A stretch of 15,533 nucleotides of DNA, taken from Pseudomonadota bacterium. Lineage in GTDB: Bacteria; Pseudomonadota; Gammaproteobacteria; Xanthomonadales; Xanthomonadaceae. Positions within the stretch are counted from its first letter, which is position 1. Every line of letters begins with the position of its first letter. Made by a program: the position numbers and the translations under genes. The notes under the pieces are model-generated. The model was not told the DNA's origin, ran no database searches, and saw nothing but the letters and a program-made list of their open reading frames with translations. The DNA lies in NCBI GenBank assembly GCA_019348095.1, contig JAHWKC010000016.1, positions 1 through 15,533 of the forward strand, in the 5' to 3' direction. This document shows, in pieces, positions 11,123 to 15,382 of the stretch.

Positions 11123-12061
11123 ATGCTCGACGCGCCTTTCCCGCATGCCGGCCGATGGAGGCTGCCCCGCACGATGGCGGCCCTGGCTGTGGCGCTCGCG
11201 GTCGCGGCCGGCTGCACGCGCAGCAGCGAGGAGCAGCCCGGCGCGCGTCCGAGCGGATTGCTGCTGGACCCGCAGATGAACGAGATCAGCGGGCTGGCGG
11301 CATCGCGGCGGCACGACGAGGTGCTGTGGATGCACGACGACGGCGGCAATCCCGAACGCCTGTTCGCGGTCAGCGACAAGGGCCGGCGGCTGGCGACGTT
11401 CGGGGTCGAGGGCGTGGTCAAGACCGACTGGGAAGATATCGCCGCATTCGAGCTGGACGGCCGCGATTACCTGCTGATCGCCGATACCGGCGACAACGGT
11501 GGCCTGCGCCACACCCTGCAACTGCACGTGATCGAGGAACCGGCGAGGCTGCAGAACGCGAGGCTGCAGCCGGCCTGGTCGATCGCGTTCCGCTGGCCCG
11601 ACGGCGCCCGCGACTGCGAGGCGGTCGCGGTTGACGCGGCGCGTAACCAGGTCCTGCTGGTGTCGAAGAAACGCCACCCGCCGCAGCTGTTCGCGGTGCC
11701 GTTGCGACCGGCCGGGACCGGCCTGCAGACCGCGGTCCAGCTCGGCGAGCTTGCCGGTGTACCGCAGTTGAGCGAACCGGCGCCGCAGCAGGCTCCGGCA
11801 CGCGGACGCTACGACAGCCATGTCACCGCGGCCGACATCTCGCCGGATGGACGCACGCTGGCGGTGATGACCTACCGCTACCTGCTGCTGTACCCGCGGG
11901 CCGAACGCGAGAACTGGGGCACGGCGGTCTCGCGCGCGCCGCAACTGAGCGAACTGCCGTGGCTGCCGCAGGCCGAGGCGCTGGGCTGGTCGGCCGACGG
12001 CGACGGGCTGTACGCGACCGGCGAGTTCGTGCCGGCGCCGTTGTATCGGATCACGCCGTAG
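11123..12061 (+). CDS. Putative lipoprotein with beta-propeller-like sequence
   Basis: A 312-residue protein with a basic N-terminus, hydrophobic segment ([14 protein letters not shown]) and lipobox VAAGC at Cys31. The mature part repeats blade-like signatures: [90 protein letters not shown] [12 protein letters not shown], and [20 protein letters not shown]. This resembles periplasmic propeller or esterase-like/phytase-like proteins, but no catalytic set is evident. The start ATG at 11123 lies 6 nt after GATGCT, a weak -10; the ATG at 11174 is an alternative that still leaves a signal sequence. Function unknown; divergent from purT with no obvious metabolic link. Confidence 0.72.
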
Positions 12062-12096
12062 ATCCAGCCTCTTCCCCTTGGAACTCCGATCTTTTC

Positions 12097-12190
12097 TCCC
12101 CCTTTGAAAAGGGGGACCAAGGGGATTTGCTCTTGCCCTGCTGCAACAGCCAGAGCAAATGCTCCCCAGCCCTCCTTTTCCAAAGGAGGG
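12097..12190. repeat. 94-bp triple-hairpin repeat element
   Basis: Three inverted repeats lie in a row: TCCCCCTTT/AAAGGGGGA (12097-12116), ATTTGCTCT/AGAGCAAAT (arms 12125-12133 and 12152-12160), and CCCTCCTTT/AAAGGAGGG (12170-12190). The outer hairpins are related to each other in inverted orientation, giving an overall palindromic, MITE-like layout. It lies after the propeller lipoprotein stop (12061) and before the SPFH promoter, so it may terminate the former and insulate the latter. I recall similar CCCCCTTTG...AAAGGGGG elements dispersed in xanthomonads; a search is needed to confirm. Confidence 0.75.
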
Positions 12191-12211
12191 AGCAGAACCG
12201 CCCCTGGCAGC

Positions 12212-12241
12212 TTGACTTGATATCAAATTGATATCAATAAT
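12212..12241 (+). promoter_or_regulatory. Sigma70-type promoter of the SPFH cluster
   Basis: A -35 box TTGACT (12212-12217) and a -10 box AATAAT (12236-12241) are separated by 18 bp, giving 5 of 6 consensus matches in each. The predicted start is near 12248, leaving a leader of about 20 nt with TGAGG (12257-12261) as ribosome site before the ATG at 12269. It is the best promoter match in the window and unusually AT-rich for this DNA. Confidence 0.65.
12217..12237. promoter_or_regulatory. Tandem palindromic operator within the promoter spacer
   Basis: Two perfect 10-bp palindromes TTGATATCAA (12217-12226 and 12228-12237) are centred 11 bp apart, so they lie on the same helix face. They fill the spacer and touch the -10 box, so bound protein would block RNA polymerase. 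Arc/MetJ-type ribbon-helix-helix dimers commonly bind such tandem sites, and one is encoded two genes into this cluster. The pairing is an inference. Confidence 0.6.
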
Positions 12242-12268
12242 GCGCCCATCATCCGCTGAGGCCCCGCC

Positions 12269-13129
12269 ATGAAAGAGAACCCGACCCGCTCCCTGCCCGG
12301 CATTCCGATGCTGCTGGTGATGCTCGCAGCGCTGCTGGGCGCGATCTGGCTGTTCGTCGTCGGCGTCCAAGCCGGCAGCGGCATGACCGCCTTCGGCGCA
12401 GGGCTGATCGGCGCGCTGCTGCTGTTCCTGATGTGCGGCCTGTACATGGTCGAACCCAACCAGGCTGCGGTGCTGAGCCTGTTCGGCAAGTACATCGGCA
12501 CGGTCAAGGACAACGGGCTGCGCTGGAACAACCCGTTCTTTTCCAAGCGCAAGGTGTCCTTGCGCGTGCGCAACTTCGAGAGCGGCAAGCTCAAGGTCAA
12601 CGAACTGGAAGGCAGCCCGATCGAGATCGCCGCGGTGATCGTGTGGAAGGTGGTCGATTCGGCCGAGGCGGTATTCAACGTCGACGACTACGAGAGCTTC
12701 GTGCACATCCAGTCCGAGGCGGCGCTGCGGGCGATGGCCACCAGCTATCCCTACGACAGCCACGACCAGGAGATCTCCCTGCGCAGCCACCCCGGCGAGA
12801 TCTCCGACCACCTCAAGCAGCAGCTCGACGAGCGCCTGACCACCGCCGGCGTCGACGTGCTGGAGGCGCGCATCAGCCACCTCGCCTACGCCCCGGAGAT
12901 CGCCCAGGTCATGCTGCAGCGCCAGCAGGCCAACGCGGTGATCGCCGCGCGCACGCGGATCGTCGCCGGCGCGGTCGGCATGGTCGAGATGGCACTGGCC
13001 GAGCTGCAGAAGAACGGTGTGGTGCAACTGGACGAAGAGCGCAAGGCGGCGATGGTCAGCAACCTGCTGGTGGTGCTGTGCGGCGACCGCAGCACCCAGC
13101 CGATCGTCAACACCGGTTCACTCTACTGA
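12269..13129 (+). CDS. SPFH/Band-7 domain membrane protein
   Basis: A 286-residue inner-membrane protein. Two transmembrane segments (~12-33 and ~41-60) form a hairpin, followed by an SPFH domain: [80 protein letters not shown] and [21 protein letters not shown] helical region with [19 protein letters not shown] and [20 protein letters not shown] ends in the [10 protein letters not shown] tail typical of this subgroup. SPFH proteins build cage-like or scaffold assemblies on membranes and often partner with proteases or stress factors; no partner such as an NfeD or HflK/C homologue is adjacent. It is the first gene of the cluster and directly follows the palindromic promoter, suggesting control by the RHH protein encoded next. 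Confidence 0.9.
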
Positions 13130-13149
13130 TGGTCCGACACCCTGCCCTC

Positions 13150-13298
13150 GTAGGAGCGGCTTCAGCCGCGATCACGTCCCCCTGCAGGAGCAACGTAAGT
13201 CGCGACCGCGCGATCTCCGGACGTAGCGCGGTCGCGACTCACGTCGCTCCTACAAAGGTCGTGGCGCCTCGTCCCATCGCAGCTGAAGCCGCTCCTAC
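13150..13298. repeat. Nested double inverted repeat (REP/BIME-like)
   Basis: The outer arms (13150-13172 and 13276-13298) match inversely at 22 of 23 bases and belong to the same GTAGGAGCGGCTTCAGC family as the 5200 element. Between them, a different inner pair (13184-13211 and 13226-13253; 25 of 28 matches, sharing GTCGCGACCGCGC) forms its own long hairpin. The block fills the gap between the SPFH and RHH genes, so a transcript through it would be strongly folded. It may stop or attenuate transcription, or mark a processing site. Confidence 0.85.
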
Positions 13299-13316
13299 AA
13301 GAGCGTCCGCGGCGCG

Positions 13317-13523
13317 ATGAGCGAAAAAAAAGCTTACCCGCTGCGCATCAACGCCGAGGTCATTGCAGCGGCGCAGCGCTGGGCCGACGACGAGTTGCGC
13401 AGCCTCAACGCGCAGATCGAGTACGTGCTGCGCGATGCACTGCGCAAGGCCGGGCGGTTGCCGCAGGCCGGTGACACATCCTCAAAGCCGGCATCCTCAG
13501 GGAAACAGGAGGGAAAGCAGTGA
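13317..13523 (+). CDS. Arc-like ribbon-helix-helix DNA-binding protein
   Basis: A 68-residue protein with the RHH layout: a short basic strand (KKAYPLRIN, residues 4-12), helix A ([14 protein letters not shown]), a turn with the conserved [11 protein letters not shown], and a second helix (RDALRKAGR), then a polar tail. It resembles Arc-family repressors, which bind DNA as dimers or tetramers through the strand pair. The likely role is repressing its own cluster at the TTGATATCAA palindromes, but it could instead be an orphan antitoxin-like protein; no toxin is evident. No clear ribosome site precedes the ATG. Codons 3-5 contain a run of eight A (13324-13331). Its TGA overlaps the GTG start of the following DUF4177-like gene. 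Confidence 0.85.
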
Positions 13524-13695
13524 GCACACGTTGGAGCTACCAGGTGGTGGAGGTGCCGCTGAATATCTTTGGCGGCAAGCAGAAGGACAACTCCAGGACA
13601 CGCTCGACAAGCTGGGTGCCCAGGGGTGGGAGCTGGTCACCGCCCACCAGGCGATGAACGAGGGCACCCGCCTGTATTTGAAGAAGGAGCGCTGA
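13520..13695 (+). pseudogene. DUF4177-like protein split by a one-base frameshift
   Basis: A GTG at 13520 overlaps the RHH stop (GTGA) and encodes [20 protein letters not shown], a typical DUF4177 start. At about 13580-13590 the homology jumps to the -1 frame, where LQDTLDKLGAQGWELVTAHQ and LYLKKER follow, ending at the TGA at 13695. The original frame instead stops at 13657 after an unrelated tail. Rejoined, the product would be about 58 residues, normal for the family. The shift equals loss of one base; no slippery heptamer is present, so programmed frameshifting is unlikely. It may be a true mutation or a sequencing error. Function of DUF4177 is unknown; it is often next to small regulators. 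Confidence 0.75.
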
Positions 13696-13749
13696 ACAGG
13701 CGCTGCCGTCCGGCACCCGCAACACGCACCAGACGGACAGGGATGAGAG

Positions 13750-13766
13750 CGGCCCCTGGTGGGCCG
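13750..13766. other. Small hairpin before the 44-residue membrane peptide
   Basis: CGGCCC and GGGCCG form a 6-bp stem around a 5-nt loop, in the 107-bp gap after the DUF4177-like frame. No T-run follows. It may be a minor RNA structure. Confidence 0.3.
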
Positions 13767-13802
13767 AAGACGCGAACCGACAACCGCAACAGGAGAGACA
13801 TC

Positions 13803-13937
13803 ATGCTGCACATCGTGAGACTGCTTGAAAAACGCTTCCCCGCCCATGCCGCCTTCGTGCTGCCGGCGCTGCTGGCCTTGGCCGCACTGGGGCTGGTGGC
13901 CGGCATGGCGCTGCTGTGGATGCAAGGCGCGCGGTGA
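13803..13937 (+). CDS. Small single-pass membrane protein, 44 aa
   Basis: Starts at an ATG 6 nt after a strong AGGAGA ribosome site (13791-13796), the best in the cluster. The peptide begins MLHIVRLLEKRFPAHAAFVL with a basic, partly amphipathic N-terminus, then has one transmembrane helix (about residues 16-39: AAFVLPALLALAALGLVAGM) and a short QGAR end. Its TGA shares one base with the ATG of the next gene (TGATG), so the two are coupled. No family is recognised. Small hydrophobic peptides of this kind are often subunits or modulators of a membrane partner; the adjacent PH-like or SPFH proteins are candidates by position only. Confidence 0.7.
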   Translation: MLHIVRLLEKRFPAHAAFVLPALLALAALGLVAGMALLWMQGAR

Positions 13938-14545
13938 TGGGATCCGCGCCGGGTGCGGCCCGCGTCGATCCGCGATTGCAGCTGCTGCCGCCGGATGGGC
14001 GCGCTCGACTGTGGCTGCTGGCGCTCACGCTGGTCCTGCCGGTGGCGATCAGCGGGCTCGCGCTCGGCGCCGCCCTCGCCCGCGGCTCCTTCAGTCCGTG
14101 GCTGCTCGACAACGTGCCGCTCAGCGTATCGGCGGTCATCGGATTGGTGCTGGTGGTCAGCCTGCCGCTGTGGCTGGTGCTGGACCGGGCGATGCAGCGC
14201 CATCGCTTGCTGATCCAGGACGGTGCGCTGGAGCTCCACACCAGCTTCTACCGCGAGCGCGTCGGCCTGGACGAACTGCAGCTGGACGCCGCCCGGGTGG
14301 TCGACGTGCACGAGCACACCGGCTACAAGCCGCGGCTCAAGACCAATGGCTTCGCCCTGCCGGGCTTCCAGAGCGGCTGGTTCCGCCTGCGCAACAGGCA
14401 CAAGGCGCTGGTGGCCGGCGTCGGCCAGCGGCGTGCGTTGTGGCTGCCGACCACCCGCGGCCACGGCCTGTGGTTGCAGGTGCGCCAGCCGCAAGCCCTG
14501 CTCGATGCGCTGAAGGACATGGCGCAGCCGCGCCGCGCTCGCTAA
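13937..14545 (+). CDS. Two-TM protein with bacterial PH-like domain
   Basis: A 202-residue inner-membrane protein with transmembrane helices at about 24-46 and 62-83, then a cytoplasmic ~110-residue domain: RHRLLIQDGALELHTSFYRE, VGLDELQLDAARVVDVHEHT, LKTNGFALPGFQSGWFRLRN, KALVAGVGQRRALWLPTTRG and LWLQVRQPQALLDALKDM. Alternating strands closed by a C-terminal helix, with phrases of the 'W...R...LL.....R...I....P..LL..L' type, are characteristic of bacterial PH/DUF304-like domains. The role is unknown; such domains are usually membrane-associated scaffolds. The start is the ATG at 13937 overlapping the stop of the 44-residue gene; the open frame begins at 13916 but that start lies inside the previous gene. 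The carboxypeptidase frame begins about 6-9 bp downstream. Confidence 0.75.
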   Translation: MGSAPGAARVDPRLQLLPPDGRARLWLLALTLVLPVAISGLALGAALARGSFSPWLLDNVPLSVSAVIGLVLVVSLPLWLVLDRAMQRHRLLIQDGALELHTSFYRERVGLDELQLDAARVVDVHEHTGYKPRLKTNGFALPGFQSGWFRLRNRHKALVAGVGQRRALWLPTTRGHGLWLQVRQPQALLDALKDMAQPRRAR

Positions 14546-14554
14546 CCTGCGGTG

Positions 14555-15382
14555 ATGCCGATCGCCGACGCCACCCTGGTCAACACCCCCGACATCGAGA
14601 TCTGGCCCGGCGGCCTGCTGCACGCGCGCAGCAACCGCGACGCGCGGGCGCTGTCGCGCGCCCGCCACGTGCTGCGGCGCAAGCGCGACGGCCAATACCT
14701 CGCCGCCGAACTGCCGGAGGGCCTGCTGCCGCTGGTGCCGCGACTGATGCACGAGCCGGGGATCGACGTCGCGCTCGACGTGCTCGATACCCTCCACGCG
14801 CATCCCCGGCGGCGTCCTCACCGATACAGCGAGCTGCCGCTGGACCGCCTGCATGAGCGCCTGCACTCGCTGGGTCTGGACGATGGTTACGGCGCCGGCA
14901 CCGGCCTGCCGCTGGTGGCCGAACCGGAGCGGCTCGCATTGGCCGGTGTCGACCGCTACCGCCGGCCGCTGTGGCTGCATGGCCAGGCCGCGCGCGCATG
15001 GGAGCACATGCGGCAGGCGGCGTTGCGCGACGACGTGGTGCTGGAGGCGATTTCCGGCTATCGCAGCCACGCCTAACAGCTCGGCATCTTCGAGCGGAAG
15101 CTGGCACGCGGCCTGGACGTCGCCAGCGTCCTGCGGGTCAATGCCGCTCCGGGCTACAGCGAGCATCACAGCGGTCGCGCGCTCGACATCGGCGCCCCCG
15201 GAGAGCCTCCGGCCGAGGAATCCTTCGAGAACACCGGCGCGTTCGCCTGGCTGCGCGACAACGCGCCTACGGACGCCTACGTGCAGCTGATCGCCGAAGA
15301 GGGAACCACGGAATTCTACGAGAGGTACGGCTTCCGGGTACGCACGCCGGATACGTCCGGCATGTCGTTCATGACCCTTTAG
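14555..15382 (+). pseudogene. Broken VanY-type D-alanyl-D-alanine carboxypeptidase with foreign C-terminus
   Basis: The frame starts at ATG 14555 (or GTG 14552) and encodes 173 residues to a TAA at 15074-15076. Upstream is the family's N-terminal half, with YSELPLDRLHERLHSLGL and AISGYRSHA. Homology resumes in the same frame right after the stop: QLGIFERKLARGL, VNAAPGYSEHHSGRALDIG (SxHxxGxAxD zinc motif), ESFENTGAFAWLRDNA. The stop replaces what is normally Tyr or similar in SHAYQ. After about 15257-15268 the expected C-terminus with the EPWHW zinc histidine is absent; instead comes AYVQLIAEEGTTEFYERYGF and RTPDTSGMSF, resembling the end of a GNAT acetyltransferase, ending with TAG at 15382. 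The protein lacks a metal ligand and is interrupted, so it cannot be an active peptidase. Only the 14555-15076 part would be made. Confidence 0.75.

Follow-up and report, generated by a model that had tools for sequence, protein, structure and literature searches.

Two identical palindromes (TTGATATCAA) in front of a gene for an SPFH/Band 7 membrane protein very likely form the operator of an autoregulated SPFH-RHH operon, in which a small ribbon-helix-helix (RHH) protein is predicted to repress its own synthesis. Because the palindromes are conserved at a fixed spacing of one helix turn before the same gene pair in several phyla, they are very probably the docking site for RHH control of its own operon, with the RHH protein as the likely, sequence-predicted binder. 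They lie in a window of 15,533 nucleotides, the whole stretch of DNA that was analyzed (Table 1).

The double palindrome and the genes behind it

A sequence scan together with shuffles confirmed the original prediction that two identical 10-bp palindromes, with centers 11 bp apart, lie at a TTGACT/AATAAT promoter. Both copies of TTGATATCAA are perfect and a single base separates them. They are the only copies in the window, even at one mismatch, and no further copy was found in the window's genome (2,712,322 bases, 72% complete). Two copies arose in 0/200 dinucleotide shuffles, and when the surrounding intergenic DNA was simulated 20,000 times with a Markov model, a single palindrome appeared in 3 runs and the pair in 0. 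A sigma-70-like promoter was sought across 12000-14000, and TTGACT-18 bp-AATAAT, with 10/12 matches, was the sole one; shuffled sequence averaged 0.4 in the same scan, so the promoter by itself is weak evidence. The hexamers had also been described as flanking the palindromes. The double palindrome does sit in the spacer, but it shares one base with the -35 hexamer (its last, which is the first of the first palindrome) and two with the -10 hexamer (its first two, which lie within the second), and it therefore touches both. The ATG of the SPFH gene follows 31 bp 3' of the double palindrome. An RNA element was rejected, as 12000-14000 gave no Rfam match.

Table 1 Features of the putative operator and its gene pair in the window
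Feature	Position	Strand	Remarks
-35-like hexamer TTGACT	12212-12217	+	sigma-70-like promoter scan
First operator sub-site (putative) TTGATATCAA	12217-12226	.	core GATATC 12219-12224; conserved core
Second operator sub-site (putative) TTGATATCAA	12228-12237	.	core GATATC 12230-12235; 11 bp from first
-10-like hexamer AATAAT	12236-12241	+	exact form and position differ among relatives
SPFH/Band 7 membrane protein gene, 286 aa	12269-13129	+	PF01145, E=6.8e-26
Arc-like RHH gene, 68 aa, proposed operator binder	13317-13523	+	Arc profile match

The SPFH protein carries a Band 7 domain (PF01145) and is not HflK or HflC, since its scores of 25.8 and 21.7 bits fall far below the respective cut-offs of 159.4 and 134.4 bits. 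The RHH gene begins 187 bp beyond it. Between the two genes lie REP-type nested inverted repeats (13144-13304; arms of 29-36 nt, 83-90% complementary), which might alter the ratio of SPFH to RHH mRNA. A profile built from 16 members of the RHH family matched single-chain Arc (E=5.9e-8) and Arc (E=7e-4) in the PDB. PF03869 was found in 10/16 members at E<=0.01; the window protein alone (E=0.012, 15.9 bits) scores under the curated cut-off of 20.4 bits, so membership in PF03869 rests on the family. A single-chain AlphaFold model placed a helix at residues 13-45 and no strand (pTM 0.46), a monomer being a poor test of an obligate dimer.

Conservation of the site before SPFH-RHH gene pairs

To follow the site across genomes, we scored the core GATATC-N5-GATATC 5' of the SPFH gene by its mismatches out of 12. 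Among 97 loci (window included), 60, 26, 9 and 2 had 0, 1, 2 and 4 mismatches, while only 6/2516 equal-length control windows from the same loci had <=2. We also scanned 84,980 species, each represented by a single genome, with a wide RHH alignment and retained the best 80 of 593 loci; these gave 21, 43, 11, 3, 1 and 1 loci at 0-5 mismatches against 13/2590 controls at <=2. These 97 loci and the 80 named ones (best 80 of 593), less 6 repeat contigs, recognized by their identical lengths, and with 5 later loci added, make 176 distinct SPFH-RHH loci, for which the upstream stretch was slightly shorter than in the two separate counts. In this set, which includes the best 80 of 593, 85, 65, 19, 3, 3 and 1 loci had 0, 1, 2, 3, 4 and 6 mismatches. 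The core is thus present with <=2 mismatches at 169/176 loci (best 80 of 593 included), and conservation at orthologous loci, the check on which the original prediction had been staked, was borne out.

Because a search with N5 presupposes the spacing, we also made a spacing-free count of the distances between each exact upstream GATATC and every other hexamer with at least 5/6 matches. An exact GATATC lies upstream at 170/176 loci, and 170/305 GATATC-like pairs are exactly 11 bp apart, with no other distance holding more than 4 pairs (loci again including the best 80 of 593). A third sub-site at the same pitch, as in GATATA-N5-GATATC-N5-TATATC, is present at 55/176 loci when matches of 4/6 or better are sought on both sides of a GATATC (best 80 of 593 included).

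Across the 176 loci, with the best 80 of 593 among them, SPFH precedes RHH on the same strand in 176/176, with a median gap of 34 bp between the matches. In the RHH ribbon, R10, which aligns with Arc R13, never varies (176/176), and residue 5 is lysine in 171/176. The RHH positions aligned to Arc Q9 and N11 hold small residues (A/S/P and P/A/L), so the contacts of this family would differ from those of Arc.

Closer to the window, the exact pattern TTGATATCAANTTGATATCAA occurs in 9/198 genomes of the family (the window's included), and all nine copies stand 5' of an SPFH gene with RHH beyond it, the RHH frame being cut by the end of the stretch in two. At 42 loci of the window's family the core has zero mismatches in 40 and one in 2. 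The 40 exact-core loci, in which both cores are at 100% by selection, have T before the first core in 80%, A after it in 87%, and TTT before the second core in 85, 77 and 100%; conservation drops outside. Of these 40 loci, 29 carry TTG[AC] <=12 nt before the site, whereas three comparison windows farther 5' gave counts of 0, 0 and 1. No acceptable -35/-10 pair was found in 4/40, and many had weak pairs only, so good support for overlap with a promoter is confined to the -35 side.

Among the loci that depart from the consensus, L057 and L058 (one genus) have a single clear GATATC and 4 mismatches, as does L260. In L057 and L058 (G051, G041) the lone GATATC has ATAC/GTAC-type arms, a variant operator, and the RHH ribbon reads KKSFPLR(L/V). 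The core was not found upstream at L223, perhaps because its SPFH match is partial.

In the best 80 of 593 loci, an SPFH gene lies upstream on the same strand in 80/80, at a gap of up to 810 bp that is <=400 bp in 78/80. Ten of these loci are named outside Pseudomonadota: Bacilli (L212, L218, L239, L261) and metagenome-assembled genomes (MAGs) of Clostridiales (L215), Coriobacteriales (L253), Planctomycetota (L255), Fimbriimonadaceae (L258), Acidimicrobiales (L221) and Sulfurimonas (L246). The core has 0-2 mismatches in 9/10 of them (best 80 of 593); bin names can be wrong, and the L246 proteins are especially close to gammaproteobacterial ones. L221 has three mismatches, yet carries an array at the same pitch (GATAAC-N5-GATCTA-N5-GATATG), and L255 has an array of three GATATA at that pitch. 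The site thus reaches Bacilli, Clostridiales, Coriobacteriales, Planctomycetota and Fimbriimonadaceae, which are several phyla.

Co-occurrence with RHH, number of targets and mode of action

An RHH profile gave 55 matches at E<=1e-3 in 397 Pseudomonadota genomes, of which 48 were strong (E<=2.7e-12) and 7 weak. All 48 strong-RHH genomes carry the SPFH gene, which was found in 51/397 genomes overall; four of the seven weak matches were examined and had no SPFH gene alongside. SPFH loci without RHH numbered three in this sample (G510, G283, G238) and four among 370 class members (G780, G928, G820, G752). The site was absent from all seven (best 5-6 mismatches), and no RHH match was found elsewhere in these genomes by a search that lacked its own positive control. 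By comparison, the class sample also yielded five additional SPFH loci that do have RHH, all with a perfect core. Site and RHH are strongly associated, with the site found at 100/102 loci with RHH and 0/7 without (Fisher p = 1.2e-9), a value that does not count independent events because the loci are related and the seven proteins more distant. Their identity is about 39-49% (tblastn), so lineage is confounded with RHH loss. Family members without SPFH (G003, G008, G010, G017) had neither an RHH match nor the site.

The SPFH gene was found in 49/60 relatives (window's genome included; E<=4.8e-68), and an exact GATATC-N5-GATATC stands in front of it in 39/49. Only six further exact sites lie elsewhere in the 49, and 3/11 other relatives have one. 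We therefore rejected a large regulon; the best reading is that the RHH protein is predicted to have essentially one target. Two of the extra sites (G023:C38, G048:C7) lie inside long frames with linkers that bear G/C, and three (G015:C29, G037:C1:4931283, G057:C216) have G/C-rich linkers. The sixth (G045:C33:9535-9551, L091 position 3036) is a second intergenic copy of the operator with the same linker as its SPFH site. It fronts a gene for a Yip1-type-like membrane protein, behind which lie genes resembling the MacA/MacB ABC efflux system (read by eye), and this second copy is a possible additional target of RHH.

These counts also bear on whether the site could belong to another widely shared transcription factor encoded elsewhere, with RHH a co-transcribed neighbor that acts on something else. 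Binding of RHH to the site is a prediction, and GATATCANNNTGATATC, which is present genome-wide in 18/48 RHH-positive genomes, also occurs somewhere in 8/349 of the others in the sample of 397, those without a strong RHH match (Fisher p = 9.6e-13). However, no SPFH or RHH relative was found beside those eight sites, and such a factor would be needed in all these phyla yet have almost no other site. The six further sites in the 49 SPFH-positive relatives argue the same way, as the three examined comprise two in long frames and one intergenic, and so does the lack of the site at all seven RHH-less SPFH loci. We consider control by such a factor improbable. All eight sites overlap a frame of at least 100 aa, and the one in L273 lies just 5' of a start. 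This L273 site (position 1501, G601:C1:1064812; GATATC-ATTGT-GATATC) is the most site-like of the eight; the genes downstream of it seem to encode a small RHH-like antitoxin and a PIN-like toxin (names read from sequence).

If RHH represses its own operon, each TTGATATCAA (core GATATC) would take one RHH dimer, with the two-stranded ribbon of the dimer in the major groove. The 11-bp pitch would bring two dimers next to each other on the same side of the helix, in a dimer of dimers like those of Arc and AmrZ, and because of this arrangement they are proposed to bind cooperatively. With the -35/-10 spacer filled by the operator and both hexamers in contact with it, the bound pair would exclude or stall RNA polymerase. 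Build-up of RHH would then lower transcription of the operon, and the SPFH scaffold would thereby be kept at a set level. We infer repression rather than activation from the position of the site, and cooperativity and polymerase occlusion are likewise predicted. Tandem palindromic sub-sites in the operon's own promoter at a fixed helical spacing, one mark of an RHH autorepressor, are present here. The core of the original prediction, an operator on which tandem dimers of the cluster's RHH protein would occlude polymerase, is strongly supported by conservation and co-occurrence, and the prediction as a whole is partly supported.

RHH might also bind and activate, or switch between activation and repression with its level, and AmrZ, itself an RHH protein, is capable of both effects (PMC3325190), but a site that spans the -35/-10 spacer is in a repressor position, and we regard activation as very unlikely. 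That the palindromes are a repeat element, a DNA structure or a product of chance to which no regulator binds has a negligible probability, for although REP-type repeats lie nearby, the site occupies a single place in the genome, is conserved solely before SPFH-RHH pairs and has no Rfam match in 12000-14000; a REP element or chance was rejected by the single copy and by conservation relative to controls.

Autorepression by RHH could also be part of a closed membrane-sensing loop kept in several phyla, in which SPFH assemblies bind or release RHH according to the state of the membrane. This is a speculative extension that we think doubtful, as is its corollary that an operator with two or three sub-sites would report membrane state and reset the dose of the scaffold.

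Related systems and neighboring genes

As an autoregulator the RHH protein is ordinary in kind, while its breadth, its partner and its near single-target use are unusual. The Arc operator of phage P22 lies between the -35 and -10 of Pant; no paper on this position was found in the open-licence literature. Arc binds 21 bp as a dimer of dimers through Gln9, Asn11 and Arg13 (PMC12645479), and the likeness extends to the family profile, which matches Arc chains, and to the site, which is also 21 bp. Unlike Arc, the RHH protein here is encoded by a host gene in several phyla, has a membrane-scaffold partner and perfect-palindrome sub-sites, and differs in its ribbon residues except for the arginine. 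AmrZ of Pseudomonas aeruginosa is an RHH autorepressor that binds as two dimers to half-sites separated by five base pairs, and a narrowed minor groove in the A/T-rich linker matters for its affinity (PMC3325190); the linker here is likewise five mostly A/T bases. However, AmrZ both raises and lowers the expression of several genes and carries a C-terminal domain, whereas the RHH protein here ends in a short, variable tail and has about one predicted target. Among RHH antitoxins (for a review of antitoxins, see PMC4803016), RelB and others repress their own operons by way of adjoining palindromic half-sites, the distance between which is critical; RelB requires adjacent half-sites, and extra spacing abolishes repression (PMC2812701). 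In contrast to these operons, the one here showed no toxin gene, has SPFH as the constant partner and places RHH second. Dedicated transcriptional control of an SPFH gene is also known from pspA-ydjGHI of Bacillus subtilis (SPFH protein YdjI), which differs in its control by sigma W, its link to PspA and the lack of an RHH partner in the portion of that report available (PMC8581546).

Searches of the open-licence literature found neither an SPFH-RHH operon nor this operator among the matches listed, and, judged by titles, no bacterial-promoter paper among the matches listed for TTGATATCAA. In the one paper that mentions an operon along with SPFH and ribbon-helix-helix (PMC8656257), the RHH phrase belongs to an entry in the bibliography, as far as its accessible text goes, and a survey from 2026 on the SPFH proteins of P. 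aeruginosa (PMC13086221) does not name an RHH partner in the part available. An apparently unstudied and widespread RHH family gains a predicted target, a constant partner gene and a consensus of TGATATCA-type sub-sites spaced 11 bp apart. Feedback that is dedicated, old and nearly single-target would then govern one class of bacterial SPFH membrane proteins, which implies that SPFH dose must matter and offers a handle on proteins of mostly unclear function.

The gene pair had been predicted to belong to a self-contained module of five genes, which proved too wide. We surveyed neighbors at 42 loci of the window's family (window included; tblastn E<=0.01), 36 of which have at least 1400 bases past SPFH. 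RHH was found in 42/42. The PH-like gene was detected at 14 loci, the pieces of DUF4177 at 10 and 14 loci, and the membrane peptide at just 4 (a 44-residue query, for which misses are likely), so only SPFH and RHH are constant. No second common neighbor family was found in the best 80 of 593 loci, where other clusters mostly resemble shadow frames of coding sequence. The toxin gene that would adjoin a type II antitoxin was not seen beside RHH, whose constant neighbor is SPFH (176/176, including the best 80 of 593; downstream genes covered in part). The window's SPFH, RHH and PH-like proteins had no PADLOC match, and a defence system was rejected on this ground.

Two other frames in the window look incomplete. 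A VanY-like frame (14555-15076) matches only profile positions 3-35/132 before a stop, for which either a damaged gene or an error of assembly may be responsible. The DUF4177-like frame (13520-13695), whose GTG start overlaps the RHH stop codon, is split into pieces in different frames (13520-13594 and 13597-13692), and whether the split is an assembly error or a real break cannot be told. Among relatives, L012 and L023 for example have the DUF4177 pieces in a single frame.
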